NCBI GenBank assembly: GCA_034401135.1
Contig: JAWZSP010000001.1
Coordinates: 5,704,001 to 5,768,000 of the forward strand
Reading direction: 5' to 3'
DNA length: 64,000 nt
Source: Volutella citrinella
Lineage: Eukaryota > Ascomycota > Sordariomycetes > Hypocreales > Nectriaceae
Part shown: positions 19,032 to 54,452 of the stretch, in pieces
How the letters are laid out: each line of letters opens with the position of its first letter
Numbering within the stretch: the stretch's first letter is position 1
Translations under genes and position numbers: made by a program
Notes under the pieces: generated by a model
Told to the model about the DNA's origin: nothing
The model's database searches: none
Seen by the model: only the letters and a program-made list of their open reading frames with translations

Positions 19032-21186
19032 TTATTGCTCGTCCCAGCGACTTTGACCCTGCTCTGTCATAGTCACAGGCTTGGCATCCTCCATCTGTTG
19101 AGGAAGCTGCAGCGGTTCGAAGCCTTCGAAAGTCTCGGCCTCGAGGTTGGCGCCGTCTTCTGACAGTAGCCTGACCAACTTATAGCGTCTTGTGAAGATA
19201 GCCCATGCAAGTAACGGTTCACCTTCAGCTGATCTCATGTCGGTGCCGTGGCGAAGAAGGAACTGAACGAATTCGTCGAATCGCTTATTGCTTTCAGCTT
19301 CGATAATCGCAGGGCGTTCTGAAATCTTTGTCCAAAGTGACCACGCTCCATTTATCCTATATTGCGAACTTTGCGTGACAAGAAATTGCCGAGTGGCGTG
19401 CTCCTTCACTTCGAATTTGGTGTAGCTGTCCGTCTTTTGCTCTCTTGGCGGGTGGTTTACGGCAATTGACGTTAGTACCTTGAAACCAGTCCGCTTCCAC
19501 GACGGTGGGCTATCGAGCATAAGCGGGTTGGTCGCAGCCGTGTTTCCGTCCCAAGGAGTCAGAGCATCGGGGATTGGTCGCTTGGTGAGACTAGCCTCAA
19601 GTATTGTCATAATGGCCTCTTCATCCGCAGGAGCGTCCACTTCTAACATCTCGATTTGAAAACGCGTAGAGGAATTGTCGGTCCACTCCTCGAGCGTGAA
19701 CATGAAAACCAGCTTTTTGTCACGCTTGATGACTTTGGCCGACGCCTTTGGTATTTTTGCGCTATGCTTGATCAATAAATTGACGGCTACACCATCAAAC
19801 TCATGGATCGCTTCAACAAGAGCATTGTGGCTATTGGCACCATTGCTGAGCAGTTTTGTGATCGTGTCTTCACTCCCTTCTTCGGCAGCTTTCAATAAAA
19901 TCCCGGTGCTATCAGCGCCGCTCTGCAGCAGCAAACGCACAATGGGCAAAACATCCCCTGCAACTGCGATCGATAGTGGCGTCTGGAATCCAGTGCTGCA
20001 TGCCTCGACGTCAGCGCCCTCGTCAATAAGCAGCTTAGCCATGGCTTCATTGCCAAATTTGGCAGCGATTCCCAGAGGAGTCCAGCCCAGATAGGCAGAA
20101 TCGATGTCGAAGCCATTGTCTAGCAGCAGCTTCGTAAATGTCCAGTTGCTTTGCTCTAGCGCTTGGGTCATGAGAAGATGACTGTCGTTGTCCCCGACGT
20201 CCAACTCGATTAACTTTCCCTTGGCAACGCCTAGGAGAAGAGACTGGATTCTGCCGGTTTCCTTAATAATATATCGGATGTGGTGCGGCCAAAATGCTTT
20301 CGCATACGCATAGAATGGAAACTGGTCAACTGAGGGCGGGTTGTGGTATTTTCCTGCGTCTGCTAAAACCTTGCCTACATCGCAGCCGCCCTGCTTGCGC
20401 GACTGCAGCAAATGGAGTGCAAGACTGCGAATAATGCTTGGTTCTGTCGAGTGGATGACCCTGGAAGGCGCCATCGCGGCCTGCAATCTCGGCGTCACTA
20501 CCGTGGAAAGCTGAGTTTCAAAAACATTGTAGCTGAGATACGTGACAATGACGCTCCCCATGGTTTTGACTACGTGGTCCATCTTGAGAACGGAGACAGC
20601 CGAGTCTGTGAACTCTCCAAAGAGGAATTGCTTGACGCTGCCATGCACAAGCCGGATGGTTTCATCTTCCTCTTCAATGGCGATGAGCCCACCGCAGCAA
20701 GCAAGAGCTGAGTAAATGTCGTTGATCATCCGCTCTGGTACCCAGTTGGGGTCGCCTGGAACGACGCTGAGCGCGTCTCGAAGTTCTTGCCTCGTCAGGG
20801 GCCGACGGGCTGCAGTGACTAGTTCGAATATGCGTGTCTGGAGTTCCTCCCCCAGTTTAGCTAACCGCTGCAGGATACGAGAAAAGGTCTCCGGAAGGTC
20901 CTTTAGTAGATCGGCCAGGGCGCTTCGGATAGCTTCATCTGTCTTGGCTGTGCATAGAGAAACGATTTGAAGAGCTGCCCACAGGAACATCCCCTTTGCG
21001 CCGTCTCGGAGGGCATCTTGGATTTCGAGAATCAGCGCAGGATTTCCTAGCACCAACTTTCCGGACTGAATGCATTCCTGGAGTTTTGAGGTAATGAATT
21101 GGCTAATGTTAGGATTTTCCTCTGGAATCAGGATTGTGATCTGGTTGGGAAATGGCTTTGGCCCCAACTTTCGGATACCACCTGCC
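19032..21186 (-). pseudogene. NACHT/ankyrin protein gene, C-terminal half, cut off by transposon
   Basis: This is the 3' part of a fungal NLR-like gene whose 5' part lies at 53135-54452. It is one uninterrupted frame of about 718 codons from the transposon border to the stop. It begins inside the NTPase module (LGPKPFPNQITILIPEE, then GMFLWAALQIVSLC, DLPETFSRILQRL, and the winged-helix-like RPLTRQELRDALSVVPGDPNW, with RLVHGSVKQFL). Ankyrin repeats follow (GWTPLGIAAKFGNEAMAKLL, TPLSIAVAGDVLPIVRLLL and two weaker ones). The last 230 residues are not recognised. Codon 1 here has no promoter; an internal Met start, such as the one in MFLWAAL, would be needed for expression. No stop or frameshift has appeared since the split. 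Confidence 0.85.
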
Positions 21187-21191
21187 TCTAG
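21187..21191. repeat. target site duplication of element A, left copy
   Basis: TCTAG here pairs with TCCAG at 53135-53139. The one difference is C-to-T at a CpA, the RIP signature. On the coding strand the two copies read CTAGA and CTGGA, and both encode the same leucine in the NACHT gene. Confidence 0.8.
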
Positions 21192-21637
21192 TGTGACGAT
21201 CGGGTAGGTTCTAACTATATAAACCTAGTACGATATACTAGGGGTTTATATTAGCAGTCTGATATAGTATATACTAAGCTTAAATAAGTTAGTAGTAATC
21301 CTAAGTATAGTAATTATAATATTATATTAAGTAATAATTAATTAAAGTAATTAAAATAACTAAATTATATTAATAATTAAAAAGCTATTTATATTAGATA
21401 TATACTTTTTAAAAGTCTATATAGTAATTATAATCCTTATTATATAGCTTACTGCTTGTCTTTTATTTATAAAGTATAATATATTAAAAAGTATAATATT
21501 TTAAAAATATTATTACTTTTTTATTTATTACTTTTACTTTAATTAGTTTATAGTTATATAGATAGGGCGCTAGTTTTTTTATTTTAAGTAGCTATATTAT
21601 AAGTCTAGGTATTATATATTAATATTAAGTCTTAATA
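21192..21637 (-). repeat. LTR of element A, left (3' LTR)
   Basis: This 446-bp LTR aligns end to end with 52689-53134. Its outer 70 bp keep some C and G (CGATCGGGTAGG, CTAGGGG), while the rest is RIP-saturated. It ends CTTAATA, the decayed form of CCTGACA. Confidence 0.85.
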
Positions 21638-22685
21638 TAATACTCCTCTTTTTAAAGTCTTATTTTAAAGCTATTTTTTATAACTATATATTAGTTTATA
21701 AGTCTTATTATAATTTAGTTTTATAAATATTTTTAATATATTAATATAATATTAAGCTAAGTAACTAAGTCTTAAATATCTTATTAAAAAGATTTTAAAT
21801 ATAATACTTTAATTAGTATTATTATTAATTTTTATAAGAAAGTAGATATACTATATATTTATTATTTTTATTTTAATAAGTAATACTTAATATTTAATAA
21901 ATTATCTTATTATATAAACTATATTAAAGTATATAAGCTTTATAATAGTACTCAAGTAGCTTCTTTTTATATATTTATTATAAGTTTATAATAGTCTTTT
22001 TATTAACTTAATTCTTTAGTTATTTATTTAGTTAATTAAGAAAATAAGTTAAAAAATAATAAAAAAAAGGCTAATAATATATTACTTACTTTTTAAAAAA
22101 AAAGCAGTAGCTATATAAGCTTATATAGCTATAGCTACTGCTTATTTATTATATATTTAGGCTATTAAAAAAAAAGTAAAAGCTTATTAAGTAAAGACTT
22201 TATAATAAGGTTTTTAAGGTTTAAATAAAAAGAATTATTTATTTACTATACTTAGAGTTTATAAAATAGAAGTAATTAAAGAATTATATAATATTAAGGT
22301 TTTTAATAATATAAATTAGGATTCTTTTAATCTTAGCTTTATTAATCTTAGCTTTTTAATTATTAAGTCTTTAAGTACTTTTTTAATTTTTTTAAGTAAT
22401 AAGTAAAGTTTTCTAAAAGTTTCTAAGTATTTTCTAATTCTAATTAATTTTTTTATTTAATTTAATATTTTATAATTCTATTTATCTACTTATAATTAAT
22501 AATTTTTTCTACTATTTATTTTATATTTAAAAGTACTTTAATTATTAATACTAGTTTTATAATATTAATTACTACTTAAATTTATATTATACTTTTAGCT
22601 AATTTTAGTAATAAAATATAAAAAATTAAGTATATATAGATAGTTTTAAATAAATTAAGTTTATAATTATTTTTTAAAATCTATT

Positions 22686-31121: not shown

Positions 31122-31325
31122 TGTAAGGGGATAGCTAAGAGCTTGAAGCTGGGGAAGAGTATGCCCTTAGGGTCAGGCTAGTATATTTACTTTTACTTAA
31201 GGTCCTCCGTTCTATGCGCAAGCTCAGCGGAAGCTTGCCGAGCCTCCGGCGGTCAGCTGGCGCCAACCGGACTAAAGTTCCTCCGCCAGTGCGGCGGCTG
31301 CGCTGGATGTGGCTGGATCCTCACA
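31122..31325 (-). repeat. 3' LTR of element G
   Basis: This 204-bp LTR reads as identical to 37917-38120. On the coding strand a purine-rich GTGGTGGGGCAA lies directly upstream, a fair polypurine tract. Confidence 0.95.
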
Positions 31326-31519
31326 ATTGCCCCACCACAAACGGGGCGCGCCCTCGGCCCCGCTTCGCCGTGTGTATGGTCCGTGCGCATCCGGCCTCCA
31401 CAACAACAACCCGTCGGTTTGTTGTTTTTCTAGATCGTCAACCCTTCCGCACATTGCCGTTGGGTCGCCGTCCTTTTGTCAACCTTTCGCCGGGGCGCTT
31501 GGTTTTTCCTTTTCTTCTG

Positions 31520-31536
31520 TGAGATCATTGATCTCA
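31520..31536. repeat. 17-bp palindrome upstream of accessory gene
   Basis: TGAGATCATTGATCTCA has 8-bp perfect arms around one base, 41 bp before the accessory ATG. It could be an operator-like site or chance. Confidence 0.35.
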
Positions 31537-31576
31537 TTTTCAAATTTTCAACTCCCGCCGTGCCGTTGCCGTCAGT

Positions 31577-32625
31577 ATGGCGGTGCTTCTCCGGATCAAG
31601 AACGTTTTGTCGGCGTTCGTCTTCGACGAACGAGAGGGTTTTGCTGGAACCCGCGCCAATAAGGCGCCATGCTTTCGCTGTCTCGTCTCCGCCAACCGTG
31701 ATCTTTCGGTCGAATGCTGCTACGGCAGTAACAAGAAACGTTGTGTTGTCTGCGAGGCAGACAAAGCCAAGTGTTGGGCGGTACGTTGCCGAGCCTTCGC
31801 CTAGATGTTTTCTGACCTCGTCCCAGATCCCAGTCGAGCTCCATGGCCCGGCTCAGGCTTATTGGAATGCCCTCAAGGACGTCGACCGTCGCCGTGCTCT
31901 CGCCGAGGGCCATGCGGATTTTATCCCCGCTGGCCACCGCAATGCTCTCTTGGACGCGATGGACGCTTGTGCTGGGGCCTAGAAGTTCCTCCAAGAAACC
32001 ATCGCGGACCCGGCAAACACTCGCAGTGCCGACGCCAAGGTTGCGCTTGCGCAACAGCAGTTCCAAGAGACCAGCTCCGTCCGAGAGCTGCTGACCGTTA
32101 TGATCTTGCAGAACGTAAGTCGAGCCTTCGCCATGCTTTCGCCATTTCTAATTTTTCCCGCCGCAGGCGCAAATGATTACTCCCGCCGATGCTGTCGCTC
32201 GCGCTGAGGCCGCTCAGCCGGCGTATGTCCGGGATGACTCCGCCGCCATGGGTGTCGACGAAGCCTTGAAGGCTTTCAACCTTGTGATCGAGCGCAAGGA
32301 GACTTCTTCCGGCGAGGCCGACTGGCCGGCAAGCCTTCCGCGGGCCTACTACACCCTCCATCCCCAGTATACGGGGCGAGCGGTGCCAGAGTGCCCAATC
32401 CAATATGCCCACTCGAAGCCGATCCGTCGTCCTGGGCAGGGCGGACCTTCGTCGGCTCGTCAGCGCCGCAACGCTGCTTTTGCAGCAAGACAGACTGGTG
32501 ACGGTGATGAGGATGGCGATTCTTTGGCGGACCTCCTCAGTGATGCCGGCTCCGGCGGTGGTGGTGATGGTGGAGGCGATGGCGATGGCGATGCTGGCGG
32601 TGGCGGCGCTGGCGGTGGCGCGTAG
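31577..32625 (+). pseudogene. cysteine-rich accessory gene antisense to pol in element G
   Basis: Three exons (31577-31780, 31827-32114, 32167-32625) make a 316-codon frame. Both introns are small (46 and 52 bp) with GTACGT/GTAAGT donors, CTGAC/CTAAT branch sites and CAG acceptors, and both join in phase 0. Exon 1 encodes CFRC, CC, CVVC and KCW (residues about 34-67), a zinc-binding-like array. Splicing then yields KCWAIPVEL, resembling a C..C...C..C...C..VP pattern I recall from fungal unknown proteins. The C-terminus is a Gly/Asp-rich tail. One in-frame TAG (31980-31982) interrupts exon 2 and may be a CpA-to-TpA change from CAG or TGG. Function is unknown. Confidence 0.65.
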
Positions 32626-32830
32626 AGCGCAGGTCATCCATTCGGCTTTTCGCCTGTGAACTTTGGAGGGGGGAGTTGAGGGGTGTCTTTGTTTGGCCGC
32701 TTGCGGCGACGGTTTGCTTTGTCTTCGGCGATGGCTTGGCCTTCGGGCATGGATCTGGTTGCTCCCAGTTTAGGCCCTTGTGGCATCGGAGTTTGAATTG
32801 GAGTTTTGGTACGGCACTGCCGTACGTTCG

Positions 32831-35800
32831 TCAAATCTTTGGCGGTGCTTCGCCATCGTCCCACTTCTTGTGAAATCGTTTGGCTTGCTTGTAATATGCC
32901 CGCAGTTTTTTCTCTGCGTTTGCCAGGTGCTCCTTTGGCTCCCATGTGTTATATTCTACAGGCCAGCCTAGCCATTTGACTTGGAAGAAGGTGTTGTCGC
33001 CATCTTGTTTGTGTGCGACGATTTCCTCTACTTCCCACTCCTCCTCCTCTTCTTCGAGGTCGGGGAGATTGTTCGGCATGTGGTCGCTCGTGACCCTGTC
33101 GTTCCAGGGTTCTAGTAGCGCGACCGATACGACGTCATGCATTCTTGCGTATTTGCTTGGCAGGGCTACTTGGTACGCCTGCTCGCCATATCGCTTGATG
33201 ATTTTGACGCGTATGAAGCGTGGTGCTAGCTTCTTGTCTTTGAAACGAAAGTTCCGCGTGCTGAGGCCGACTGTTTGGCCTTCTGTGTACGCCTGCTCTT
33301 GGTGGCGCTTGTTATAGTGCTTGGCTTGCGCCTCTGTAGCTACTTGCCAGCACTGTGCAGCTTTCTGCCGTACTTCCGCAATCTTCTCTATGCGTTCCTG
33401 CACGCCCTTGACCTTTGTCTTCAGCATGTGCGGTGCATATTCAATAGTACGCGGGTGGTAGCCCATGAGTGCCTCGATTGGAGACACGCCAATGGTACTA
33501 TGCTTGCTGTTATTGTACGCGAACTCTGCCTCTTGGAGATGTGCTGCCCAATTCTGTGGGGACTCTCCGGCGTATATTCGCAAGTACTTTTCCAGCGTTT
33601 GGTTTAACCTCTCTGTCTGTCCATCCGTTTGTGGGTGGTACGCTGTGGACAGCCGGCGTTTGACGGTTTGTTCCATCATCAGGTCAGCCCAGAATTGGCT
33701 TGTGAAGAGCTTGTCTCTATCACTGACGATTCCTTCTGGGGTGCCGTATTTACACTCAAGGTGCTTGTGGAGGATGCCCGCCAACTGTGCGGCGTTCAGC
33801 CGCTTTGTTGTTGGGATGAAGAGTGCGTACTTGGTTATTCTGCAGACAATCACAAGGATTGCATCCGCCGGCTCGCCATTTGGCTGCGCACTTTGTGGCA
33901 GTCCGGTGATGAAGTCCATACTGATTTCCTGGAAAGGATGTGATGGCAGTGGTAATGTTTGCAGTTTGCCATAAGGCCGATGCCTTGGCGTGCGTACGCC
34001 TTGGCACAGGTCACAGGTTTTTACGTACTCCCGGACATCCTCAGAGAGGTTGGTCCAATGGAATTTTCGTGAGATTAATTCTAGGGTCTTTGCAGCTCCC
34101 ATATGCCCTGATCTCGGGTCATCATGGTGTCGGCGAAGGATCTCTTGCCGTAAGGATCTTTCCTTTGGAATCACGAGCCTGCCCTTAAAGAACAAGGTGC
34201 CATCTTGGTCAACCTGGTAGTTCTTCTTCCCGGCGTTAGTGCGCAGTGCCTCCGCATGAGCTATGCATTCTGGGTCGGTGGTCTGCAGCCCCCGAACCAG
34301 CGCTTCTAGCTTATGAGATGGCTGTACTAAGAATGCCGTTTCGCCCTCCATGAGTTCTCTCATTACAGGGCGTGGGATGCATTGGTCTAGAACAATGACC
34401 CCAGCTTCTTCCAGGTCCTCGGCGCGTTCTCCGCGAACGTCGCCCTGGGAAGCCGATGCTGTGGGTACGCTGCTCCCCGCTAGTTTCCCCAGTGTGCCTC
34501 TTCGGCCTCCAGCAATCGTGGTATATATAGCGCATTGCGGCAGCTCGCCTGAGGGGCTGCATTGCAAGGGCGAGGAAGCCCTTGGTTCTTGGGTTCGGAG
34601 CGGCCTAGCCAGACTGGTCTTCACTGTCTGGATAAACGCTCTTGCTACCTCAGTTTTGCCTTTTTGACTCGCGATCATTCGCCGTAAGTCTGGCGGTAGG
34701 TTCTCAATGAGATTCAGCTTACGGGCCAAACTTGGCAACACGTCGCTGTAGGTAGGCTGACCTTCAGTGTAGTCTGGCCTCCTTGATAAGCCGTCCGCTG
34801 GGTTGTTTATACCAGGGCGGTGTTTCACTTCAAAATCGAACTCTGAGAGCCGATATACCCATCTGGCTAGTCTCCCTCGGAGATCTTTCGCCGGGGCCTT
34901 GAGGATCTGTCGCAACGCTTCATGGTCTGTGAGCAGGGTAAACTGCTCTGACAGTCCTTGTAGGTAGTGGCTCCAGTGCTCTAGGGACTCTAGGACCGCT
35001 AGAAGCTCCTGTTGACCAGTACCCCATCTATTCTCTGTCTCTGACAGTTTGCGCGAGAAGTACGCGACTGGACGCCATTGGCTGTCATGTAGCTGGGCAA
35101 GGATGCCCGCGATCGCCTTGATTGAGGCGTCGGTTTCCACCCTTGTGGGTAGTGTAGGGTCCCAGTGTCGGAGAACAGTCGCGGAGCTGAAGGCTTGCTT
35201 TAGCAGCTCAAAAGCTATCGCAGCGCTCTCCGGCCATTGGAATTCCCCTGCCTTCTTTCCCTGATGGCTGCCTTTTAGCAGATCTGTCATTGGGGATACT
35301 ACCGTAGAATAGTGGAAAATGAACTTTCGGTAGAAGTTACAGAATCCTAAGAAGACTTGGAGCTCTCGCACTGATGTGGGCGGCTTCCATTCGGTGATAG
35401 ATCGGACTCGTTCCGGCTCCATCCCAATGCCCTCCTGTGTAATGCGATAACCTAGGAAGGTTATCTCTTGTTGGTAGAAGGAGCATTTCGATAGTTTAGC
35501 GTAGAGCTGTGCGGCTTGTAGCCTCTCTAGGACTTGGTGCAAGTGCTTAGTGTGTTCCTCCCTTGTTTGAGAGTAGATGACGATGTCATCTAGGTATGCG
35601 ATGCAGTATGTGTCCAACAGTCCGGCGAGCGCCCGGTGTACGTATGCCTGGAAGGTCGCTGGTGTATTGGTGAGGCCAAAAGGCATTACATTATATTCGA
35701 AGTGGCCGTACCGCGTTCGGAACGCTGTCTTCTAGCGGTCGCTCTTCTTGATCCGGATGCGGTGGTACGCATCCCGGAGGTCGATTGTGGATATCCATTT

Positions 35801-36907
35801 TGCACGGGAAAGGCGGTCCAACAGCTCGCTGATTAAGGGTAGGGGATACCGGTTCTTTATAGTGACTGCATTAAGCCCCCGGTAGTCTACATATAAGCGC
35901 AGGGTCCCATCTTTTTTAGGAACGAATAGGATAGGAGCACCCGCAGAGCTTTCGCTCTCACTAATGCGACCTGCTGCTCGCTGTTCCGTAAGATACTCCA
36001 AGAGTACCTTACTTCTCTTCTCGTCTAGGGGGTAGAGAGGCCTGAATGGGGGTGTCTTTCCCTTCTGTATGTTAATCGCATGTTCCGCATCTGGTAGAAG
36101 CGGCGGTTCTTTTGCTAATTGTTTGTCGAATGCTCGCGCAAACTTCGCAAGCTCAGCAGGTAGTGGTACTGTTTCGCTCGGTGGCTTCTCGTCTAGGGAC
36201 GCCATTTCGCGGTCCTCGTTCGAAGCAGCGCCGTACGTATAGAGAATGTAGGCCTTCTCCTGCTGCTCCGCGACTTCGGATGCGAAGGATTCTGGGTCGG
36301 CGATGGATACTGCATCGTACTGCCATGTGCGAGCGGTCGTCGAGATAGAGATGCCCTCTCGGCCCATTGAATCATTGGATAGGAGTAGGTCGCTGGAGCC
36401 CTCAGGCCGGTCCGTGCCAATGAAGTTACGGTAGATCTTGCGTGGCCAACCGTGCCTGTCGATTAGGAAGAATCCAATCCTGTATGCCTGGCCACCCTTC
36501 TGGCTAGTAATACCTTGCCAGTTCTGTAGCTCAGGGACCTTGGCTCCCGCGAGTGGTTGGAGACCCATCTGCGAGATTAGACGGTTGCTCACAAGATCAA
36601 CTTGTGCGCAAGTGTCCATGTCCACGACGACTTGTCGCTCTTGGCATCCTTGGATAACAATTGCGTTACCCTTGACTATTTGGCCGATTGGAACAGTAGT
36701 AGTGGGTTCGGGCGCCAGCGGTGCTGCTTCACTACCAGCGCCTACTCGTTTTCCGAGGAGTCGTCGGCCGGTAGCCGGAACATGACCTCCTGCACCGTAG
36801 CCTTTGGTAGTGGGGCTGGTGCTGGGGTCGCTAGGAGCGATCCGTTCTGGTGTTTCTTCGCGAAGCAGTCGGCGTCCTTGTGGTTCGGTCGCCCATAGCG
36901 GCGGCAT
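32831..36907 (-). pseudogene. pol of element G (PR-RT-RH-IN-chromodomain), one nonsense codon
   Basis: One frame, broken only by TAG at 35732-35734, encodes the polyprotein that copies and inserts the element. In order: a protease-like [14 protein letters not shown] (DTC where DTG/DSG is usual); reverse transcriptase with LYVDYRGLN and YLDDIVIYS; RNase H with TDASIKAIAGIL; an integrase zinc finger (HH and CDLC); integrase D, D and E residues in SMDFITGLP, GIVSDRDKLF and QTDGQTERLNQTLE; and a chromodomain (WEVEEIVAHK to VKWLGWPVEYNTWEPKEHL). The stop falls before KTAFRTRYGHFEY, where a Trp is standard, so TGG-to-TAG is likely. Pol lies in the -1 frame relative to gag; the Met at 36907 may not be a true start. 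Confidence 0.9.
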
Positions 36908-37881
36908 TGCTGTTTCTGCGGGTTGGCCTTCTAAGGCTTCTTCTGTGCGTGGGTGCCTTGGTCGGGGTTCCGTTGAGGTTGGCCTCTCTCTCCTCTTTCT
37001 GGATTGTGTCCCGGTTTGTGTTTCTTCGGGTTGGTGTCTGGTCTTGCATGGTCTGATGTGCGTTTGCGGTGATTTGCCGAAGCGTCGCCGCTTGTTGCGC
37101 TGAGATAGATCCAGATCCGCTCGGCCTCGTTAACAACATCCCGGACGTTCAGTAACTCAACCATTTGTCGATCGATCTCATCACGTAAGTCCTTCCTCAA
37201 GCGGTAGTAGAAGTGGTGCGCTACCGTTGGGTTGTTGTCAAGTCCTTGTGTGCCTAGGGAGGCGTGGGTCGCTCTCCATGCTTGGAAGAACTCCGACGGC
37301 GACTCGGCGACCTTCTGACGATGGGCCTCAAGTTCATTGCGGAGTTGGCGTTCCCTTAAACGTGGGTCGACGTGTTGCTGTCGCACAAACCCGATGAAGT
37401 CATCCCATGTGGGGTCTTCGTTCGCTAGGCCTCCGACGTGCGTTCGCCAACTTTGCTGCTTCCTGTAGCACATTTGCGTTTGTGCCCAATAGATCCTTTG
37501 TGCCACGGAGGCACGCTTCCGGAAACTATTCCCTGTCTCGATCGCCTTGATCCAGTCATCAATAGCAGTGTTGTTGTCGTCTTCCTGGAGTATCTTGCAG
37601 CTGTATCTCGGGGGTCGTTCGTATTCGCGTTCTTCTGGCGAGCGCTTGGCGATCAATTGGCGAATGAGCTCGTTCTGGTTTGTCATTTGTTGAAGGATCA
37701 TGGCTGCCAGTGGGTCACTAAGCCCGGCCTGTGTGCTAGGGACCTGCTCGTCTTCGATAGAGGGCGTCAATCGGTCCTCGTCTGATAGTTGCGGTCGGTC
37801 TGATGGAAAGGGGGTGGTAATTCGCGCAGTAGTCGGCGACTGCTCGTCTCGCAGGGGAACGGCCTGTCCGTGTGCAGACAT
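36865..37881 (-). pseudogene. gag of element G with late nonsense codon
   Basis: The nucleocapsid polyprotein begins 35 bp inside the 5' LTR. About 316 residues are open: an acidic N-terminus, the retrotransposon gag fold (DDWIKAIETGNSFRKRA, WDDFIGFVRQQHVDPRLRER, FFQAWRATHASLG) and a basic tail. A TAG at 36931-36933 follows. The same frame then continues into a zinc knuckle (36865-36906) reading C-R-R-Y-G-...-H-...-C, with Tyr for the second Cys. Both the stop and the Tyr fit CpA-to-TpA changes seen on the plus strand. Confidence 0.85.
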
Positions 37882-37904
37882 ACTCGGAGCTAGCTTCTAT
37901 AAAG

Positions 37905-37993
37905 AAGTAAAAGAATTGTAAGGGGATAGCTAAGAGCTTGAAGCTGGGGAAGAGTATGCCCTTAGGGTCAGGCTAGTATATTTACTTTTACTT
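37905..37993 (-). promoter_or_regulatory. possible self-priming site of element G
   Basis: Directly inside the 5' LTR the coding strand reads ATTCTTTTACTTC, not the TGG start of a tRNA primer site. CTTTTACTT here (37905-37913) is the exact complement of AAGTAAAAG within the LTR (37985-37993). Tf1/sushi-type elements prime reverse transcription from the folded 5' end of their own RNA in this way. Nine base pairs is near the length used by Tf1. Confidence 0.45.
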
Positions 37994-38120
37994 AAGGTCC
38001 TCCGTTCTATGCGCAAGCTCAGCGGAAGCTTGCCGAGCCTCCGGCGGTCAGCTGGCGCCAACCGGACTAAAGTTCCTCCGCCAGTGCGGCGGCTGCGCTG
38101 GATGTGGCTGGATCCTCACA
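37917..38120 (-). repeat. 5' LTR of element G
   Basis: This 204-bp LTR reads as identical to 31122-31325, so the insertion is recent and no RIP transition separates the two. No TATA box is obvious. Confidence 0.95.
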
Positions 38121-40369: not shown

Positions 40370-40664
40370 AATAATAAAGATATTAAAATATTTTTATAAT
40401 ATATAATTAATTATTTTTTAAAAAGTTATTAATATATTTATAAATTTAAATAATATAATTAAATATTTAAATAATTTAAATTTAATTTTAAAAATAGTTT
40501 TCTATTTATATCTTTTTTTAATCTTAATAAAATTATAAGCTTTTTTAAAATTAAATATAATAAAAATCTTTTTTTTTATAAATAGTTTTTTATTTTTATA
40601 ATTAATAATAATAAAGTTCTATTTTTAAAAATACTTTTATTAAATTAATAATAGTTAATTATAA

Positions 40665-41114
40665 TATAACAATCAGGTAGGTTCTAACTATATAAACCTA
40701 GTATAATATACTAGGGGTTTATATTAGCAGTTCTGACATAGTATATACTAAGCTTGAATAGGTTAGTCATGATCCTAGGCATAGTAATCATAATATTATA
40801 TTAGGTAATAGTTAATTAAGGTAATTAAGATAACCAAGTTATATTAATAGCTAAAGAGCTGCTTATACTAGATATGCACTTTTTGCTAGTCTATATAGTT
40901 TGTCTAATCCTTTATTATGTATAGTAGTCGCCTAGTTCTTTATCTAAGTTATCTGTGACTATGCGCTAGTCATAAGTAACTAGTATATAGTTATGCCTGA
41001 CTTTCCTTAGTATAACTATAACTATATTTTATTAGTCTATTAGTAATTAGATATTCCAGTCTATATGCCCTGCCCTGTGTATTAGGTTACTATATATTAG
41101 CGCGGGTTCTGATA
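40665..41114 (-). repeat. LTR of element C, left
   Basis: This 450-bp LTR matches 48403-48852 over its whole length with scattered transitions. It starts TATAACAATCAGG and ends GGTTCTGATA. Confidence 0.85.
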
Positions 41115-44032
41115 TAATGTCTCCCCTTATAAGGTCTTGTTTTTAAAGCTAGATAAATAACTGTCTATTGGTTTATTATATCTGTCTAGAACTTTGTCCT
41201 ATAAACATTCTTCTAACGTGCTAACTGTTATATCCTCTAGTTCTATTAACTATTATTATACTAATTCTATCTTTATTACCTCTAAAGGTTTCTACCTTAC
41301 TATACCTTGCTTATACTATAAACTACAAGGCTTAAAATATATAATAATAGAAGGTCGTAAGAAATATACTAAATGTACTTATTATAATCACTCTTATGAT
41401 AGTATTAGCGTCTTTGTTAGTAAAGGTCTGTTTTTATTTATTTCCTCTTTGCAGTAGTATCCTTTTATTCCTAACTCTTTATTTCTAGCTAATCGTTTAG
41501 TTAAAGCAAAAGATTGCTTAGAAGCTAAGGAAGAAGTAACTGAAAGTAAGATTCTTAAGATCTAGTGTTAAATAAATAAGCGCCTGAGTTGTTTAATATA
41601 TATCTATTATTAGAAGTATTTACTTTATAATAAGGGTTTAGTAATATTAAAGCGCAATCTTTAATCTATTAAGAAGTTAAAGGTCACTAAGTAAGAGGAA
41701 GCTCGGGCTATAGTTAATATTTAGTCTATTAAGGCTGTGAATATTATTAATTAGTCCTCTGTAGGGTTAGTTAATCCTTCTCTACTTATTATAGAAACTC
41801 CTTTAGTTTCTTTAAGTAATAGGTAAGGTTCTTAGGAAGTTCCTATATGTTTTCCGATTCGGGCTAGTCTTTCTATTTAATTAAGTAAGTAGTTTTACTA
41901 TCTTTGAATTTTTTATCTAGGATTTGTTCTACTGCCTATTCTTATAGTAGGATGATCTTATCTGCTAATACGAAATCGACGTGTCTGTTATAACGTCTTT
42001 TATCCTATATTCTAACCTAGATAGTTCCTTCTGCAGTTTCTAATAATAATATATAGAATACTAAGTAGAGTAGTGATTTTCCAAGGTCTAGTTTATAGTT
42101 ATTTTTTATAATTTTCTTTTTAATTTTAAAAAGTCTAATAAACTTGTAGTTAAGTTTTTTATTTTGTTATTTTATTTCGAGGTTCTTTATTAATAGGTAG
42201 ACTATACTCCCCTCTTTAAAGGTTAGTACTAGTGACTGTTTAAAGTTATAGTACTTAGTTATTTAATTCCTAATAAATTCAAGTTCTATCTTTATTTCTT
42301 TATAGGTTTTCTTTAGTTTATCGCTTTTTAATATTACCTTGATATTTACTAGTCCCTTTTTAATATCTCTGTAGATATCTAGGTTATAGCTATAGAGTGC
42401 GACTGCTAGTATTATCTTAATACTATTATAGTAGCTTAAGTTATATATAAGTTATACTAAGAGTAAAAGTTCTACCTAGTTATTTTGCATATAGTTAATA
42501 TAGTATCTAAGGTATTATTCTACCTCCTAGTTAAGTCGCTCTATTTATCTATCTATTTATAGTCTAAATACTATTAAAAGTTTATTATTAAATCCAAGGT
42601 ATCCTATTAGTCTATTAAAGAATTTTAAAATAAATATCAAGCCTCTATCTAAAATAATCTCTATTAGCAGTCTATATACTAAGACAATATATCGAAAAAA
42701 TATATAAGAGAGTTATTCTATATTTATTACTTCTTAAAACAGGATATAATATACAAATTTTATAAGTCTATTAATAATAATAAAAATATTATTATAATAT
42801 ACTCCTATTACTAGGTCTACTAATAGTAGTAGCTTTATAATAAAGTCTATTATTACTAAGTACTATAATTATTTACTAACTAATAAGGATTGTAATTCTC
42901 TATAAGGTTTATATTATAGTACCTTAGTCTTTTTATATATATTGCATATTATAAGGACTTCTTCTACTTTTTATTTCATTTTTAAGAAGATATAGTATTA
43001 TTTTAGTCATTCTACTATCTTCCTTACTCCTAAGTATTTATAGAGTCTATATCTATATACTTTCTTAATAAGGGCTGCTTGCAGTTCTTCTAGGATATAT
43101 TCCTTATCTATTACAGAGGGTTCTAGTATTACTAAGAGCAATCCGATTATAATAATTTTACTAATAAGGTTCTATATATAATTATTATATTTGTCCTTAG
43201 TAAGTAACTATATTTCTATTTTTATTATTTCTAGCTCGAAGTCTAGTCTTTAGCTAATTATATTAGCTCTTCTATTCTCTGTTCTTTTAATATATATAAT
43301 AATATAGTCAAACTCTAATAGGTATTTAGTATATTATAGTTATTAAGTATTAAGCTTCTGAGTTATAGTAAAGTATATAATATTTTTATAGTCTGTGTAT
43401 ACTTATACCTTGTATTTACTTCTTTTAAAATAGTACTAAAACTCTTTAAATATATTAACTATTATAAGGAATTCTTTATTATAAATAGGGTAGTGTAACT
43501 CTATCTTATTTAATTTATATAAGTAGAATGCAATTAGATAGAGGCATCCTTTCTTATCTTTCTATCCTATCTAGGCCCCTAGTCCTCTGTCTAAGGCATT
43601 AGTTTCTAGTATAACTTCTTTCTCTAGGTTGAATATTTTGAGTACTAATTCGCTAAGGATGGCTTTCTTAACTTATTTAAAGGCTTCTTATTCTTTAAGT
43701 TCTTATTTAAACTTAACTCCTTTTCTTATAAAGTTAGTTATTAGTATTACTATCTTGCTAAAGTTTTTAATAAAATGTTAGTAGTAGTTAGTAAAGCCTA
43801 AGAATAATTGCATTTCCTTAATATTAGTTAGTATCTGCTATTCCCTAACTGCTATAATCTTTTTAAGATCTATATAGATTTTATTTAGTAAGATAATATA
43901 ACTTAGGAACTCTACTTCCTATATATAGAAATAACTTTTCTCTAGTTCTACTAGAAGTTCTACTTCTTATAGTTTTTATAATACTTAGTATATATATTAA
44001 GTATGTTCTTCTTCTATCTTTAAGAAGATAAG

Positions 44033-44050
44033 GATATTATCTAAGTAATA
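44033..44050 (-). pseudogene. reverse transcriptase active-site relic in element C
   Basis: The minus strand reads YYLDNI followed by LIF, the YLDD box with one G-to-A change. It sets the coding strand of element C. Confidence 0.7.
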
Positions 44051-45616
44051 TATAATAAATATATCGAGGTATTCTTATAGTATATAGTTAATTATTTTTT
44101 AGAATAAGGCTGGAGTATTAGTTAAGCTAAATAGTATAACTAAATACTTAAAAAGTCTAAACTTAGTTCAGAATACAGTTTTCCACTCATCGCCTTTCTT
44201 AACTCTTATCAAGTTATAAGCTCCTTTCAAATCGAGTGCTATAAACTAATTCATACCCTAGAGTCGGTCCTTCATTTTTATAATTAGTAGAAGGAGTATC
44301 CGATCCTTAAGAGTGATCTTATTAAGCTATTAGTAGTTTATAACTAGACAAAGTTTACTGTTTTTCTTAGGGATAAATATAATAGGGTATCCTGCTTCTA
44401 AACTAGAGCTTCTTATATAACTTTTTGTAAGTATTTCTATAAGGTATTCTTAGAGTATATCCAATTCTTCTTAGTTTAAGTTATAGATTTAGAAGAACTT
44501 AGGTTTCTTGCTAACTTTTAGGATAATCTTATAGTTCTATTGCCCGTGCTTTAATAATTCAGTATCGAGGCTTTCTGCAAACAGTTTTTCATACTATTAG
44601 TATAATTTAGAGATATCTTTAAGGCATTCCTCTACTCTCTCCCTTTCTTTTCTAATAAAGTCTTTCTTCTTCTTAATATCTTCCTTCAGTATGTTATTAA
44701 TATGCCTGAATTATTTCTATAGGAGCCTAATAATTTTACGCACTCTACCTATATATAATTATATCTATTTCTATTATATTCTCTTTATTAGGGTTATATT
44801 TATTTCTTAGGTAATATCCTTACTACTAGTAGTTTTGTCCTTATTAGTCTAAGTTTGAGATCTCTTATCTTAAAGCTTATCAATATAAGTATATAAATTG
44901 TTCTATATAAGGCCTTCCCTCTAGTTAATAAGTAGGTTTTATTATTTTAGCTATTTATAACTTAGTATAATTTAATATATAGTAACTCTAGTAATATTAA
45001 AATTTATACTCTTATTCTTCCTTACTATAAATACTTTATAATATTTTAGAAAGTATTAGATATACCTATTATTATATAAAAACGATTTACTCTTAAGTCT
45101 GCTTAATTAGTATTAGTCTTTTTCTAGTTTTATCTCCTAGTTTAGTTATAATTCATTAATAAGTTCTAGTAAAATATAATTATATAGTGCTCTGCTATCT
45201 ATAAGTACTATAACATTTTTCTTTTTAATTTATATAGTAGTTTCCAGTTAGGTCCTTTCTTTATTATCTGCGTCTATTATAATATAGAGCTGTCCGATTG
45301 TTTATATCAGTTCTTATAGGTCTTTAGGTCGTCCTAATTACTCCCTTACTAGCAACTATTACCTTTTCCTATTTCTTATTTATACTATAGAGCGATTTTC
45401 TCCTAGGTATACTTCTTATACTAAAAATCCTAGTAATTCTTTACAAGGTTAGAATTATAATAGAACTCTATACTAATACTAATATAATATTTATCAATCC
45501 TCCTTATCTTTATTTATTATATATCTAGTACCTTAAGTATTAGTATTAGTTAGATATCCTTTCTATCTTCTTAAGGCCTAATAGGGTAGGTATTATTTTA
45601 GTATTTCTCTATATAG

Positions 45617-45950
45617 TGTGTGGCAGCTGGATCACATTGGCATTTTGGTGGTTGGGCTGGATTGGTCAATTGGGCGTTTGGGTCAGTAGCTTAAAAGGGG
45701 CAGGTTCGCTCAGTACTTGAGATCAACAAGAATTTTCCCCCTCTTTCAATCTTTTTCTGTTCAGGGACTCCTTCATTTCTGTCTGATCAGATCGCTGGTC
45801 AATTCAGATTTTGTTTATCTTGCGAGGTTCTCTTGCTGGAGGTCACGCAAAATTTCGCTTTTCGCCCAAGTTCAGTTACCCTACGGCAGGTTTCTGCAGG
45901 GGACACTGACAATTATTGGTGTTTGTTTGGGCCTGTCATTCTCACCAACA
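45617..45950. repeat. unmutated 334-bp island, probable solo LTR of a third family
   Basis: Normal-GC sequence starts TGTGTGGCAGCTGG and ends CTCACCAACA, so it has TG...CA ends. A TTAAAAGG box and pyrimidine-rich stretch inside resemble an LTR promoter. Flanks (TATAG and AATAG) agree at only four of five bases. The short frame inside has no support as a gene. Confidence 0.5.
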
Positions 45951-48402
45951 AAATAGTAATAGCTATAGCTTTATATATAGTAACTAATCTATACTAACTT
46001 CTTATATTTAGGGTCTTCTAGTAAGTAGATTACTTAGTCCTTATTATACTATGGCAGGTATATCTAGGTATTGTACTAAAAGGCTATAAGGATCTATCCT
46101 ATTTCTTTTTCTTAGTACCTTCTTTTTATTTTCTAATACGTCTCCTCCTACTATTAAGTAATATTTTTAATAATTCTCCTCATAATTTGCTATGTTTTAT
46201 TAGGGTTTAGTTATTACTTTATTCCTAAAAGTGTGATTTTAGTATAGTATAGTTAGAGTCTAAAAAGCTATGCTCTCGAGGCTTCGTCCTTTATAAATCA
46301 GTACTTATTGCATCTATAGGTTCAGTAGTTGTATAGTTTTTCCTTAATATAGGAATTATATCCCTCTTATTATTCTTAGGCCTATTTACTTATTTTTCTT
46401 TCTGCTATTATAAGTTCATTTTATAATAATTAGGTCTTAGGTTCAGGCAATAAGTTAAAGGGCATTAAGTACTCTTATAGGGTGTACTTATATACCTTTC
46501 TGACTATTCTGATAGCTTTTAAGTCAATGTTCTTAGGTTTCTCTATTTCTATTAGCAGTAGCTCCTAATATCTTTTAAACTATTATATTGATATTAGTAC
46601 TAGTTTTTCTTATATTAAGTTTTTTATATTCTTTACCTTATTATCCTATAAGTCGAGCCCTAACTATCTAGCTAATTCGGCTTCCTTAGCTATAAGCTGG
46701 CTTTCTTTATACTTATTTATTTAGTATTCTTATAGTTTATAAGTAATATATTAGACTTAATCTAAACTTCCTTACTTAATAAGCTATCTTATTATACTAT
46801 CTTATAGGCTTTACGCAAGTAGAATAGTTTTATTAGTTCATACTTCAGGCTAGTTATCTTATAAGGTAAGTCCTGCAAGTCTTACTATTTAAATTTCTAT
46901 CTTAGTAAGTAGTTCTCCTATCTATTATTTATATAGTTAATACTTTTCCTTAACTTACTAAATTTCCTTCTATTAGCTCTTAGTATAGCCTATCTTATCT
47001 AAGTAGAATATTTCTTTTTATAGGACTCTAATAGCTTTCTTTATAGTAATTCTCCTTATAATATAGTTATAAGATTCCACGTTCTTCTACTTTTACTAAG
47101 TATAGTACTATAAGAGGGTGTCTTATTATTCTTCTTCTAACCTAGACTTAGCTTCTTCTTTAGTCTTATAGAGGTTATAGCTATATAACTAGATTTCCCC
47201 TAGGCTGGTACCTATAGTATTATATCTTTGCTTTCATCCTGTCTATTTTCTAAGTACCTTTATAGTTATTATTCAGATCGCGGTTTAGGGTTCCTTACTA
47301 AAGCTGCTAATATACCTTTTCTAGTTATTTTTTTATAAAAGTGGTCTGAACTTATTACAAACCTTATTCAGATAGGCACACTCCCTAGCTCTATGTCCCT
47401 TCTATCCACAGTCCTAGTAAATAAATTCCTTATTTTTACCTATTATTCCTATTATTATTAGTCCTAGTGTATATCTATATAATATATTAACTCATAGGGT
47501 ATTATTATGCTAGTATTATTAGTTCTTACTTTTAAAGTGCTCAGGGTAATATAAGTTAAAGTTCCCTCCTCTTTTATATACTGCCCTTTCCTAATATTAT
47601 TTATACTATTATTTATTAATTTTAACTACTATTATAATATACTCTATCAGAGTATCAGGGCAGTTAGCTTTAAATAGCTTGTCCTTAACTTCCTCTTTTA
47701 GTCCGCAGTAGAAATATTCTATTAATAGCTCCTCATCCTAACTAAGCCTAACTAAGATTTATCTAAATATAGCTCTATAAGCTATAGCAGATTTAGTTTA
47801 TTTAAGCTTAAGGAGTTATACTATAGCCTAGCATTCTTTATTTATATTTCTAAATATATTATATAGTACTTCTTTAAAATTATCCTAGTCTGCGAAGATA
47901 TCCTAGGTTTCCTAGTTTCTTAAATCTAGATCATTCTCTAAGTAGTCCTTTATAATGGGTTCGAACTATATAGTAGCAGTGCCCTTAAGGCATCCTTAGG
48001 TAAAAAGGACTTTAGCTTTGCTACTAGCCAGGGTATTAGGATAAAACTTAAAGTAAATATTAAGGTAGGTAAGAAATAGTATAATATTATTTATATATCT
48101 ATTGAATACTATTAGCCGTAGTAGGTATATATCTACTCCAGGGTCCTTTATAAGTGCTAGTAATAGGTTTAGTAATAGAGTGTTTATATATTCCTCTATA
48201 CTAGCGATAAGGTTATAAAATCGTATGACTTTAGTATTTATCTTATTATAGGTTGTATTAGTACTATTATATACAGGCAGAGCTCTAGTACTCTAAGCGC
48301 TATTATTAGATATATTAGTATAAAAGTTAGTTCTAGATATAGTTAAATAAGGAAATATTACTTAGTAGTATATAAGGCTATATTAAATAAGAGCTATTAA
48401 TA

Positions 48403-48852
48403 TATAACGATCAGGTAGGTTCTAACTATATAAACCTAGTATAATATACTAAGGGTTTATATTAGCAGTTCTAATATAGTATATACTAAGCTTAAACAGG
48501 TTAGTTATAATCCTAGGCATAGCAATTATAGTATTATATTAGGTAATAGTTAATTAAGGTAATTAAAATAACTAAGTTATATTAATAGCTAAAAAGCTGC
48601 TTATACTAGATATACACTCTTTACTAGTCTATATAGTTTATCTAATCCTTTATTACGTATAATAGTTACTTAGTTCTTTATCTAAGTCATCTATAACTAT
48701 ACGCTAATCGCAAGTAACTAGTATATAGTTACACCTGACTTTCCTTAGTATAACTATAACTATATTTTATTAGTCTGTTAGTGATTGGATATTCTAGTCT
48801 ATATACTCTGCCCTATGTGTCAGGTCACTATACATTAGCACAGGTTCTGATA
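48403..48852 (-). repeat. LTR of element C, right (5' LTR)
   Basis: This 450-bp copy pairs with 40665-41114. TATAA follows immediately and equals the five bases before 40665. Confidence 0.85.
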
Positions 48853-51800
48853 TATAAATCTTAGTTTATTATTTTTTTTAAATATAAATATAATAAGGTA
48901 TCTAGCTTTTAAATTTAAGATTTAAATATAACTTTTTTTAAAATACTTTTTAAAATACTTTTTAAATACTCTTAATTTAATTTAATTAAAGTTATAAATA
49001 AGAAAGAATTTTATTATTTTTCTATTTTTAAATATAATCTTATAATCTTATTATTTTAATTTTAATAATCCTATTTCTAGTTTTTTAATAAATACTTATT
49101 AATATTTTTAGTATTATTATAAGATATTAGTAAGCTTATTAAGTATAACTTTCTTATTTTCTTATTATTTTTTTAAGTCTTTATTAAGCTACTTAAGTTA
49201 TTTTTTAATTTAAATAATTATTTTTTATAACTTATATATTTATTTTTATATATATTTTATTTTTATTTTTTTTAAAATAATATAAATATTTATTATATTT
49301 AAATTATTATTAAGTAACTTATATTTAATTATAATATAAAATCTTTTTATTATTATTAAAAACTTTTTATTATTAATATTAAGTTAGTTCTTAATATAAT
49401 TAGTCTATTAATTAATAAGTAAGTTATATTTATATAACTATTAATATTTAAAGATAATATTATTATTAATCTTTATAATATTATAATCTATCTTTTTATT
49501 TTATTTAATAATAAATATTTTAAGATATTTAAATTTTTTAGTAACTTTTTCTTAGTTATAAGTAAATTTATTATTATTATTTTTAAATAAAAAATATCTA
49601 TCTTTTTTTTTATTTATAATAGTTATAATTAATTAATTAAGTTTATTAAGAAATAGTTTTTTTTTATATTATTATTAATTAATATTATAAGTATATATTT
49701 TTTAATCCTAATTATTATTTTTAATTATTATTATAATTTATTTTTTTTAATATTATTAAGTTTATATATAAGTCTATACTTTATTAATAACTTAATTTTT
49801 AAAAACTTATATTTTTTAATAATTTATAAAGTATTTTAATAGCTTTTATTTTTTTTAGCTTTTTTTTTTTTTTTTTTATAATATTTAGGGTATAAAGAGT
49901 TTTAATAGTTTTAATATTTTTTAATTAAATATCCCTTTTTTAATATTTCTTTAATCTTAATATATTAGTTATTAGTTTTTCCTATTATATAATAAGCCTA
50001 TTAATTATTTATTATTTCTAAGCTTTTATTTTCTTAAAGTATTTTAAATAAAAAACTTTTTATTTTTTATTTATTAACTAAGTATAAGCTATAATAATAA
50101 TTAAAGTATTAAATTTATAGAATTAATAAGTAGTCTTAGTATTTTATTATAAATTATAAGTTATTACTTTTTATAAAATATTTTTATATTTAAATATAAT
50201 AAGGTTATAAAATAGTATAAATAGTAAAGTAATAATTATATTATACCTTTTCTTTATATTTAATAGTTTTTTATTTATAATTAGTTTTAAATTAGTTTTT
50301 TATATTTTTAATTATATTTTTTATATAAGGCCCTTTTATTATATTATTATTAAAATTATAATCTTAGTTAATTTCTTTTAGTTTTAAATTAAGTCTTAGT
50401 ATTATTATTTATTTAGTATTTTTTTTTAAATAGTTTAAGATTAGTATTTTTTATTTTAATTTCTTATATTAAAACTTAGACTTTAGTATTTTTCTTAATT
50501 TATTTAATTATTACTTATTACTAAATAAGTATTAATCTAACTTTTTTATATCTTTTTAAATTAGTATTATTTTAAAAACTCTTATCTTTTTTTTTTTTTT
50601 AATTAAAATTATTCTTAAGCTTTATATATAGCTTTTATTACTTATAATTATTATAATAAGTATATATCTAAGTTAAAGTAGGTTTATTATTCTTTTTTTT
50701 ATTATTTAATATCTATTTTAATTTTTTTATTTATTTTATAAATAAATCTTTTTTATTTTTTTAACTATTTCTTAAATAGGTTTATATAGTTAGTTTCTTT
50801 TTTTTTATAAATAGGCTATTAAACTACCTTATCTTTTTTATTAATACTTAATCTTTTTATTATTTTTTTTTATTATATTTTATATTATTAATTAGTAAAA
50901 TAATAAATCTTATATTAGTATATAATATATAATAAGTCTTTATATTTAAGTTTTATAAAGATATTAATAACTTAGTTAAATAAATTATTACTAAATAAAA
51001 TAAATAAATTATTAAAATATATCTTAGATAATATATAATTACTAACTTTAACTATTTATTAATTAAAGTTATAATTTTTTATTTTATAATTATATTAATT
51101 ATATACTTTATATAAGTTATATTATATATTATATAAAAATTATTTTATATTATAAACTTTTATATTTTATTTTATAATTTAAAATTATTAAGTATTTTTT
51201 TAAATAAATATAAAATAGACTTATTTTTTAAGTTTTTTATATTTTTATTTAAAATATCTTTTCTTTTTATAATTATAATAAGTAATATTTTTTTTATTTA
51301 TTTTAATAATTCTAAGTTTTATAAGTCCTAATTTAGTATTATAAAAAGTATTAATTTAAAAAGTATAATTATATTAATATTATTAATTTTTTTTTTTAAA
51401 ATACTTAAAGTAATATAAATTAAAATTCCCTTTTTTTTTATATACTACTCTTTTTTAATATTATTTATACTATTACTTATTAATTTTAACTATTATAATA
51501 ATATACTTTATTAAAATATTAAAATAATTAATTTTAAATAATTTATTTTTAACTTTTTTTTTTAATTTATAATAAAAATATTTTATTAATAGCTTTTTAT
51601 TTTATTTAAGCTTAACTAAGATTTATTTAAATATAGTTTTATAAGTTATAATAGATTTAATTTATTTAAATTTAAAAAGTTATATTATAACTTAGTATTC
51701 CTTATTTATATTTTTAAATATATTATATAATACTTTTTTAAAATTATCTTAGTTTATAAAAATATTCTAAGTTTTTTAATTTTTTAAATTTAAGTTATTT

Positions 51801-51938: not shown

Positions 51939-52355
51939 TGTCAGAACCTGACGCTAATGCACGGTGCCCTGACCTGCGGCGTAAGCGCACGGACTGGAAG
52001 AACCTATACCCGAACCCGGACCCCCAACCAATCAAGGATAGAGCGACAAGTAATGGAGCGACAGCGCTCCAGGAGCGCAGCGCTCTAAACATATAAGCGC
52101 TCCCTGAATGATTACTCCAAGCAAACATAGTAATCTAGTATAAATATCCCTACTATAGTACGATGAAGAGGACCAGCCTCTTCAGCTATCAATAACACTT
52201 AGTTACCGCAATACCCCTTGCCTATTACCAGACGTGACAATACATTTGTCTTGCACACCGATCAACGCTCAGTATTACGCCCTGGTATAATTGCTAATAT
52301 AAACCCTAGTATGATTACTGCTGTTTATATAGTTAGAACCAGCCCGGTCGTCATA
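51939..52355 (+). repeat. solo LTR, related family, almost free of RIP
   Basis: The 417-bp sequence starts TGTCAGAACCTGACG and ends CCGGTCGTCATA (originally ...CACA), flanked by TAAGG and TAAGA. Its ends match those of A, B and C, but it is inverted relative to A and differs in the middle. It has palindromic GAGCG/CGCTC blocks, for example around 52073-52085. The surrounding element A sequence is fully decayed, so it arrived later. Confidence 0.8.
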
Positions 52356-52688
52356 TAAGAAATAATATAATATTATTTATATATTTTTTAAATATTATTA
52401 ATTATAATAAGTATATATCTATTTTAAGATCTTTTATAAGTATTAATAGTAAGACTAATAATAAGGTATTTATATATTCTTTTATATTAATAATAAGGTT
52501 ATAAAGTTATATAATTTTAATATTTATTTTATTATAAATTATATTATTATTATTATATATAAATAGAACTTTAATACTTTAAATATTATTATTAAATATA
52601 TTAATATAAAAATTAATTTTAACTATAATTAAATAAGGAAATATTACTTAATAATATATAAAACTATATTAAATAAAAGCTATTAATA

Positions 52689-53134
52689 TATAATAATTAG
52701 ATAGGTTTTAACTATATAAACTTAATATAATATATTAAGAGTTTATATTAATAGTTTAATATAATATATACTAAGCTTAAATAAGTTAATAATAATCTTA
52801 AGTATAGTAATTATAATATTATATTAAGTAATAGTTAATTAAAGTAATTAAAATAATTAAGTTATATTAATAATTAAAAAGCTATTTATATTAAATATAT
52901 ACTTTTTAAAGGTCTATATAATAATTATAATCCTTATTATATAGCCTACTACTTGTTCTTTATTTATAGAGCGTAATATATTAAAGAGCGCAGCGCTCTA
53001 GGAGCATCATCGCTCCTTTATTTATCGCTCCTGCTCTGATTAGTCCGTAGTTATGTAGGTGGGGCGCTGGTTCTTCTATTCCAGGCGGCTGTGCCGCGGG
53101 TCCGGGCACCGTGCATTAGCGTCAGGTCCTGACA
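52689..53134 (-). repeat. LTR of element A, right (5' LTR), half RIPed
   Basis: This 446-bp LTR matches 21192-21637. Bases 52689 to about 52975 are RIP-saturated, while the last 150 bp, next to the NACHT gene, are intact and include the palindrome AGAGCGCAGCGCTCT (52985-52999). Confidence 0.88.
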
Positions 53135-53139
53135 TCCAG
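53135..53139. repeat. target site duplication of element A, right copy
   Basis: TCCAG is the unmutated partner of TCTAG at 21187-21191. Removing the element and one copy rejoins the NACHT frame exactly. Confidence 0.8.
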
Positions 53140-54452
53140 CCTCCACGACAAGCAGAGAAGCAATACAGTGGCGCTCTGCAGGCTTTGGATTTGCTTCTTT
53201 AACAATGCGATCTCGTGTTCATCGCATTCATCCAGCCCGTCTAAAACGAAGTAGGCTCTGAAATTCGATGGTAGGGCGTGTGTCAATATCTCGAGCATTT
53301 TGCCCAACCCGGGCTCCCCAGCAGTTTCATCGATTACTACCGTGGAGAGATCAGGAAGCGAAGACAAAAGTTGTCGAGCCAAAGAGCTAAAGATTGTTTG
53401 AGCCATCAAACTCTCCGGTAAATCATGTCGACAGAAGAAGTAGGCAACTGCACATGTTGAGTTTTGGCTTTGTAGATGTAAATCATCCACCACATTGGCA
53501 AGAAGAACAGATTTACCCGAACCCAGCTTGCCTGTGTACACTAGAGTCGAGGAAACTGATTTGTTTCTCCAATCATGGTATTCCGTCTCGCCAAAAATTG
53601 TCGAGTTTCCCGCTTTGCGGATCTCCTTCCACGATTTCTGATGATTGTACGTTGAACAATAGTTCAGGATCTGGATCCGTGCTCTGAGCCTCTTGCGCTG
53701 TTTTTCGGTATCGACGAAGTTGGTCAAGGCACTTAGACGTGAAGACTGGCTTTCGATACCCTCGGCCATTAGATATTCCACCTCCTCTCGGATCCTGTTA
53801 CCCCAGTCATGGAGTCCAGACTGATAGCTCTTCGTGTCAGCATCGGTAAGAGACATGAATTGTTTCAAAATCGACTGCCTCGACAACTTCAACGACCGAT
53901 GACACAGGTGAACGATGACGATGAAGTATTCGGAGAGATGCGACTGAAGGGGTTTAGAACGGTGATAGAGCAAGCCTATCCGCTCATAGAGAGGAGCAGA
54001 CCTGCCAGCCACCATGAGCAACGAAGAGACTCTTTCCAGAAACGAGGAGAAGTTGACGATGGACTGAGCATAAAGTTAGCAAGCCAAGATAGACCAGAGC
54101 GGTGCAGACCAACAAGCAATGTCATTCGCACCAGAGTCCAGACCCCGGCTGCGACAATGTTCTGTGCGCCCCCAACAACAATATCGCCCAAGGCTGCGAA
54201 TTGCTGGATTGACTGCAAAACATTCGTCAATCTAGGCCCGACGCAGCGAACCCCGGGTTTCTGCTGGCGGTCAATCTCTGCCGTCAGTAGCATCACATCG
54301 TCGATGTTCGGCGGCGACTTGGACGACTTGATCCTCGAGCTGCGGAATGCGTCCTTCTGATCATCAGGGAGGTCAGCCTCAAACTCTGAAACAGCTTGCG
54401 CCAGGCGGATCTCGGGCTTCAGTTGCGGTGCTTTGGCAAGCTTAGAGAACAT
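53135..54452 (-). pseudogene. NACHT/ankyrin protein gene, N-terminal half, cut by transposon
   Basis: This is the 5' part of the fungal NLR-like gene completed at 19032-21186. Exon 1 is 54452-54114 and exon 2 starts at 54063, after a 50-bp intron with GTTGGT, GCTAAC and CTCAG signals. The N-terminal domain (residues 1 to about 250) is of the kind found before NACHT in many ascomycete proteins (MFSKLAKAP, then SEYFIVIVHLC). The NTPase follows with a P-loop GKLGSGKS (residues 291-298) and Walker B FVLDGLDECDE (385-395). The break falls at residue 422-423. As it stands the frame runs four residues into the LTR and ends at TGA (about 426 residues), so a truncated sensor/NTPase could be made. Confidence 0.87.

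Follow-up and report, generated by a model that had tools for sequence, protein, structure and literature searches.

The window analyzed here, a stretch of 64,000 nucleotides (G000:C1:5704001-5768000) from a 45.1-Mb assembly of 26 contigs that was also searched as a whole, contains a minus-strand NACHT/ankyrin NLR-like gene of a hypocrealean fungus in two open fragments about 32 kb apart. The assignment of the host to Hypocreales comes from its RPC2 gene, for which the best of 120 listed matches, from Fusarium and other hypocrealean fungi, are 92% identical. Minus-strand open stretches lie beside an AT-rich block, at 53122-54075 and 53976-54584 on one side and at 19032-21224 on the other; homologue alignment and splice signals link the first two through a predicted 50-bp intron (54113-54064 on the minus strand, GTTGGT...CTCAG). 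Exon 1 (54114-54452, minus strand) encodes the N-terminal region of the NLR, 113 codons from the ATG, and is matched by homologues from their own residue 1. Exon 2 as far as the insertion site (53140-54063, minus strand) encodes the NPHP3_N/NACHT module, in which Walker A, Walker B and sensor 1 lie, and abuts the right copy of a target duplication (TCCAG, 53135-53139). There follow an insert of nested LTR retrotransposons (21192-53134; 31,943 bp, 25% GC overall), the left copy of the duplication (TCTAG, 21187-21191) and the remainder of the gene (19032-21186, minus strand), which comprises the end of the NACHT domain, a winged helix, ankyrin repeats and the stop codon. By arithmetic, the full protein would have 421 + 2 + 717 = 1,140 residues, in agreement with the length of about 1,140 proposed in the first-pass annotation. 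That annotation had also read the fragments as two minus-strand halves of one gene; both the strand and the unity of the gene were confirmed, and the 50-bp intron in the N half, which it did not mention, has to be added.

The N half has the domains of a NACHT-type NTPase (NPHP3_N, 4.2e-26; NACHT, 6.3e-10), and the C half supplies the winged helix and C-terminal repeats expected of an NLR (GPIID_WHD, 6.4e-08; Ank_2, 9e-22). An NLR should also be one continuous gene, and the break at 21192-53134 makes this one a disrupted member. PF24883 alone does not define an NLR, as it is also present in nine of 14 prokaryote control genomes. Exon 1 had no match in Pfam. Among seven homologues scanned, DUF7708 was above the cut-off in P0010 and just or clearly below it in P0045 and P0018, and the N-terminal region of the P0040 structure model is helical, at low confidence (mean pLDDT 57). 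A PDB sequence search gave a single weak match, to exon 2, and an Rfam search of the window found nothing.

The two halves were never joined for the homologue comparison; each was aligned separately to 183 distinct homologous proteins (the 120 that were listed out of 267, plus 63 that were new among the 120 listed of 837), and the spacing between halves was read from the single best BLAST alignment of each protein. Among these listed homologues, the C half was matched by all 183 and the N half by 181. In 158 of the 181 (106 of 118 in the first set alone), the N-half and C-half matches leave precisely two residues uncovered, and one copy of the duplication plus the next base encodes two residues, Leu-Glu. 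The pair was readable in 153 of the 158, where the alignment reached the last N-half residue, and Leu-Glu was the commonest pair among the homologues listed (LE 52, VE 25, LD 20, the rest other). In the 23 of 181 listed homologues with deviant spacings, 14 range from -2 to 5, three are -5 or -6, three are -36, and -22, -94 and -143 occur once each. The -36 spacing belongs to the Monosporascus records P0001, P0004 and P0028, which lack some 38 residues, the Walker B region among them, just before the insertion site; these gaps could be gene-model errors.

When compared with the whole genome, the intact protein P0038 matches both fragments, through its residues 101-431 and 428-890; its next-best match is an uninterrupted gene on contig C6, at 44% (41 of 253 candidates scored). 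Fungal NACHT/ankyrin proteins such as P0038 of Lasiosphaeria ovina share the order N-terminal region, NPHP3_N/NACHT, GPIID_WHD, ankyrins, and are uninterrupted whereas the window gene is split. The best identity over at least 300 residues, among the homologues listed, is 62% for the N half and 54% for the C half, and eight listed homologues reach beyond about C-half residue 600. Because the listed homologues so consistently leave two residues and P0038 matches both fragments, chance is not a plausible explanation of the split-gene pattern. An origin of the halves from two different genes is ruled out by the same spacing and matches. The two proteins that failed to match the N half look like contig-end fragments. 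P0003, from a 4,151-bp contig, lacks an initial Met, and its first residue corresponds to a point 6 residues inside the C half; P0058, from a 1,902-bp contig, starts 8 residues ahead of the site and continues across it. Natural half-proteins ending or starting at the site, to which the first-pass annotation had pointed as evidence that would count against its reading, were thus not encountered among the 183.

At the borders of the insert, TCTAG adjoins TGTGACG (21191/21192) and CCTGACA adjoins TCCAG (53134/53135), giving the TG...CA ends, short duplication and direct LTRs of an LTR-element insertion. The 5-bp duplication (TCTAG/TCCAG) contains one mismatch, a C-to-T change in CA context of the type produced by repeat-induced point mutation (RIP), which is silent under the genetic code, leucine being encoded either way. 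A direct repeat (21205-21491 and 52702-52988) is 90% identical over 287 nt, and therefore both borders lie within LTRs of one family; the outer ends of the insert represent a single LTR family in direct orientation. The earlier proposal that removing 21192-53134 and one copy of the duplication restores the reading frame is in accord with the borders, the phase and the two-residue homologue spacing. Likewise, the target duplication, LTR ends, phase and through-running homologues uphold its central claim of a gene split by a retrotransposon nest.

The cut falls after the sensor-1 strand of the NTPase, so that Walker A/B lie on one side of it and the winged helix and ankyrins on the other. In homologues the site comes after ...LLCVSFR or similar, past the Walker B strand, and P0040 residue 438, which corresponds to the cut, ends a predicted strand in the low-confidence model (mean pLDDT 57). 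The motif names used here (Walker A, Walker B, sensor 1) follow the usual anatomy of NACHT domains. The same names have been used for mutants of NWD2 (PMC4344463). The N half keeps all three elements, continues with LDVRT and a stop, and has no winged helix; in the C half, the first in-frame ATG lies about 66 codons in. The N half therefore ends inside the NTPase module and at an LTR end, as first annotated, with the cut now placed after sensor 1 and the LTR border at 53134. A working giant intron was considered improbable and set aside: the insert consists of 32 kb of retroelements, and a stop is supplied after LDVRT.

Within the insert, the left outer LTR (21192-21640, plus strand, inner end approximate) is RIP-like almost from its edge, and the right outer LTR (52690-53134, plus strand, inner end approximate) is not RIP-like in its last ~150 nt. 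The outermost element is too eroded for gag or pol to be read, and an inner Ty3 element is the sole one identified by its pol. This Ty3/gypsy chromovirus (31122-38120, minus strand, 55% GC) has a perfect AGATT target duplication and LTRs (31122-31325 and 37917-38120) that are identical over 204 nt; its pol frame contains one in-frame stop and carries a chromodomain. A second LTR element (40647-48854, 27% GC) has LTRs (40647-41116 and 48386-48854) that are 89% identical, and more direct and inverted copies within the insert point to further insertions. The parts of the nest form a GC gradient, from 11-13% in the AT-rich blocks through 27% in the second LTR element to 55% in the Ty3 element. Together with the identical Ty3 LTRs, this gradient suggests a relative order of insertion and a stepwise growth of the nest, the Ty3 element having arrived last. 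The outer LTRs were rejected as a means of dating, since after such erosion their divergence carries no meaning. A chromodomain can steer integration to H3K9-methylated sites, as described for MAGGY (PMC4600332), and by analogy the Ty3 chromodomain would fit integration targeted to such sites.

Other copies of these elements occur in the genome. A second Ty3 copy (L050, G000:C5 4497613-4501613), compared with positions 31300-35300 of the window (L049), has 3,933 identical positions and differs by 58 C-to-T, 5 T-to-C and 1 G-to-A changes; the C-to-T load of L050 is strand-asymmetric and lies mostly before A (36) or G (24). The end of the right outer LTR (52985-53134) is not RIP-like, although 11 of its 16 other genomic matches are 81-90% identical. 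A further copy of the outer LTR family (L040 1649-2811, G000:C4 about 4.9503-4.9515 Mb) adjoins normal-GC DNA that encodes a partial glycosyl hydrolase family 3 C-terminal domain, and L040 is possibly another split gene.

The signature of RIP differs sharply between the repeats and the coding DNA. AT-rich blocks (11-13% GC) have TpA/ApT ratios of 1.28-1.31, substrate indices of 0.03-0.22 and composite RIP indices of +1.06 to +1.28, against 0.49-0.55, 1.36-1.47 and about -0.9, respectively, for each coding half. The loss of CpA and gain of TpA are thus confined to repeats, for whose erosion RIP would be the cause. At the left border the composite index rises from -0.75 (21142-21191) to +1.78 (21192-21241) in one 50-nt step, and on the right side the low-GC, RIP-like state stops about 150 nt inside the LTR. 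Windows of 50 nt are noisy, and two in the N half (53235-53284 and 53335-53384) are positive at normal GC; because of this noise, our statement that the flanks are clean rests on the whole-half values. Neither coding half contains an internal stop in a total of 3,417 nt. Under neutrality, a divergence of about 2.5% would suffice for a 95% probability that one or more stops had appeared, in an estimate that assumes transitions to transversions of 2:1 and single substitutions only. The open frames and lack of an overall RIP signature point either to a recent insertion or to constraint on the halves, and we favor the former. Comparable RIP-affected AT-rich regions of ascomycetes, as described in PMC9970103, are also nested, low in GC and biased toward RIP-like dinucleotides; those regions occupy a gene-poor niche, whereas the island in the window lies inside a coding exon.

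With the split, its site, the nest and the open flanking frames demonstrated, we consider it very probable that a single LTR insertion into a one-intron NLR-like gene was followed by nested elements and RIP erosion. One LTR retrotransposon would have inserted once into the NACHT exon, with the 5-bp duplication arising at that step; further elements would then have landed within it, RIP would have eroded the repeats of the nest, and the chromodomain Ty3 element was probably the last arrival. Loss of NLR function is the likeliest consequence inferred from the genome sequence of this one strain. Silencing of the gene by the surrounding heterochromatin is a likely candidate effect.

Podospora nwd2, a gene that carries WD repeats, offers a precedent. 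In Podospora anserina, nwd2 is described as inactivated by the element REPA in all het-s wild isolates analysed (PMC3321046), and is thus, like the window gene, a fungal STAND/NLR gene broken by a repetitive element. The element there is a different one, whereas here a 32-kb nest with RIP-like erosion interrupts a gene with C-terminal ankyrins. Stop codons have also been reported in a het-d allele of Podospora, as have NWD pseudogenes (PMC12222747), and in Sordariales the number of NLRs is described as only weakly correlated with RIP and repeat content (PMC12258605). Transposon inactivation of a fungal NLR is therefore already described (PMC3321046), and the window adds one case; our search of open-licence PMC papers found no description of this locus.

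The insertion could also be segregating in the population as a loss-of-function allele, alongside intact alleles of a non-self-recognition locus, as for nwd2 in Podospora, a reading that departs from the history proposed above only in its claim on other strains. The clean coding flanks suggest a recent event, as this reading would have it, and het-s and het-S strains of Podospora differ in the nwd2/REPA insertion (PMC3321046); however, the window locus is known from one strain only, and we regard a segregating allele as rather unlikely. It is far less probable that the halves are expressed separately under selection, one yielding a truncated signalling-NACHT protein and the other a winged-helix/ankyrin protein. 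The stop-free coding sequence and the lack of an overall RIP signature in either half agree with such expression, but a recent insertion accounts for the open frames equally well. Moreover, the cut lies inside the NTPase, a natural half ending or starting at the site was found in 0 of the 183 listed homologues, and no in-frame ATG occurs close to where the C half begins. Equally improbable is that two separately expressed pieces still influence non-self recognition, a one-protein receptor having been made two by a retrotransposon nest. We give the least weight of all to an assembly error that joined unrelated ends of repeat islands: nested AT-rich repeats are difficult to assemble, and the inner part of the nest may contain assembly mistakes, but the target duplication, the LTR ends and the residue-exact continuity of the gene would not come from a chance join.

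Genome-wide, PF24883 gave 97 matches, 10 of them with an internal stop in a search that ignores introns. A 300-nt window below 35% GC was present in two and absent in 28 of 30 NLR loci (the best-scoring 30 of the 97, with 1.5-kb flanks), a small score-ranked sample from which we claim no enrichment. One of the two is a second NLR (L026/L058 1450-1939, G000:C2 about 304.1-304.6 kb), which is interrupted by a ~490-bp AT-rich repeated element with inverted-repeat ends and TA flanks, copies of which elsewhere are 97%, 96%, 96% and 82% identical; this NLR also has an in-frame TAG within its NACHT match. The other (L021) has ~250 nt of very low GC at about 2200-2450, separating the NACHT frame from a same-strand upstream frame that is ankyrin-like by eye.

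Much of what is seen at this locus is ordinary transposon biology. Beyond that, it provides a residue-exact record of how an NLR can be lost, in which an insertion fell within the NTPase and an eroded repeat island grew while the coding flanks stayed clean. It also illustrates how NLR counts can be distorted if an annotation treats halves 32 kb apart as separate genes. The split locus could further serve as a marker in presence/absence testing of populations.
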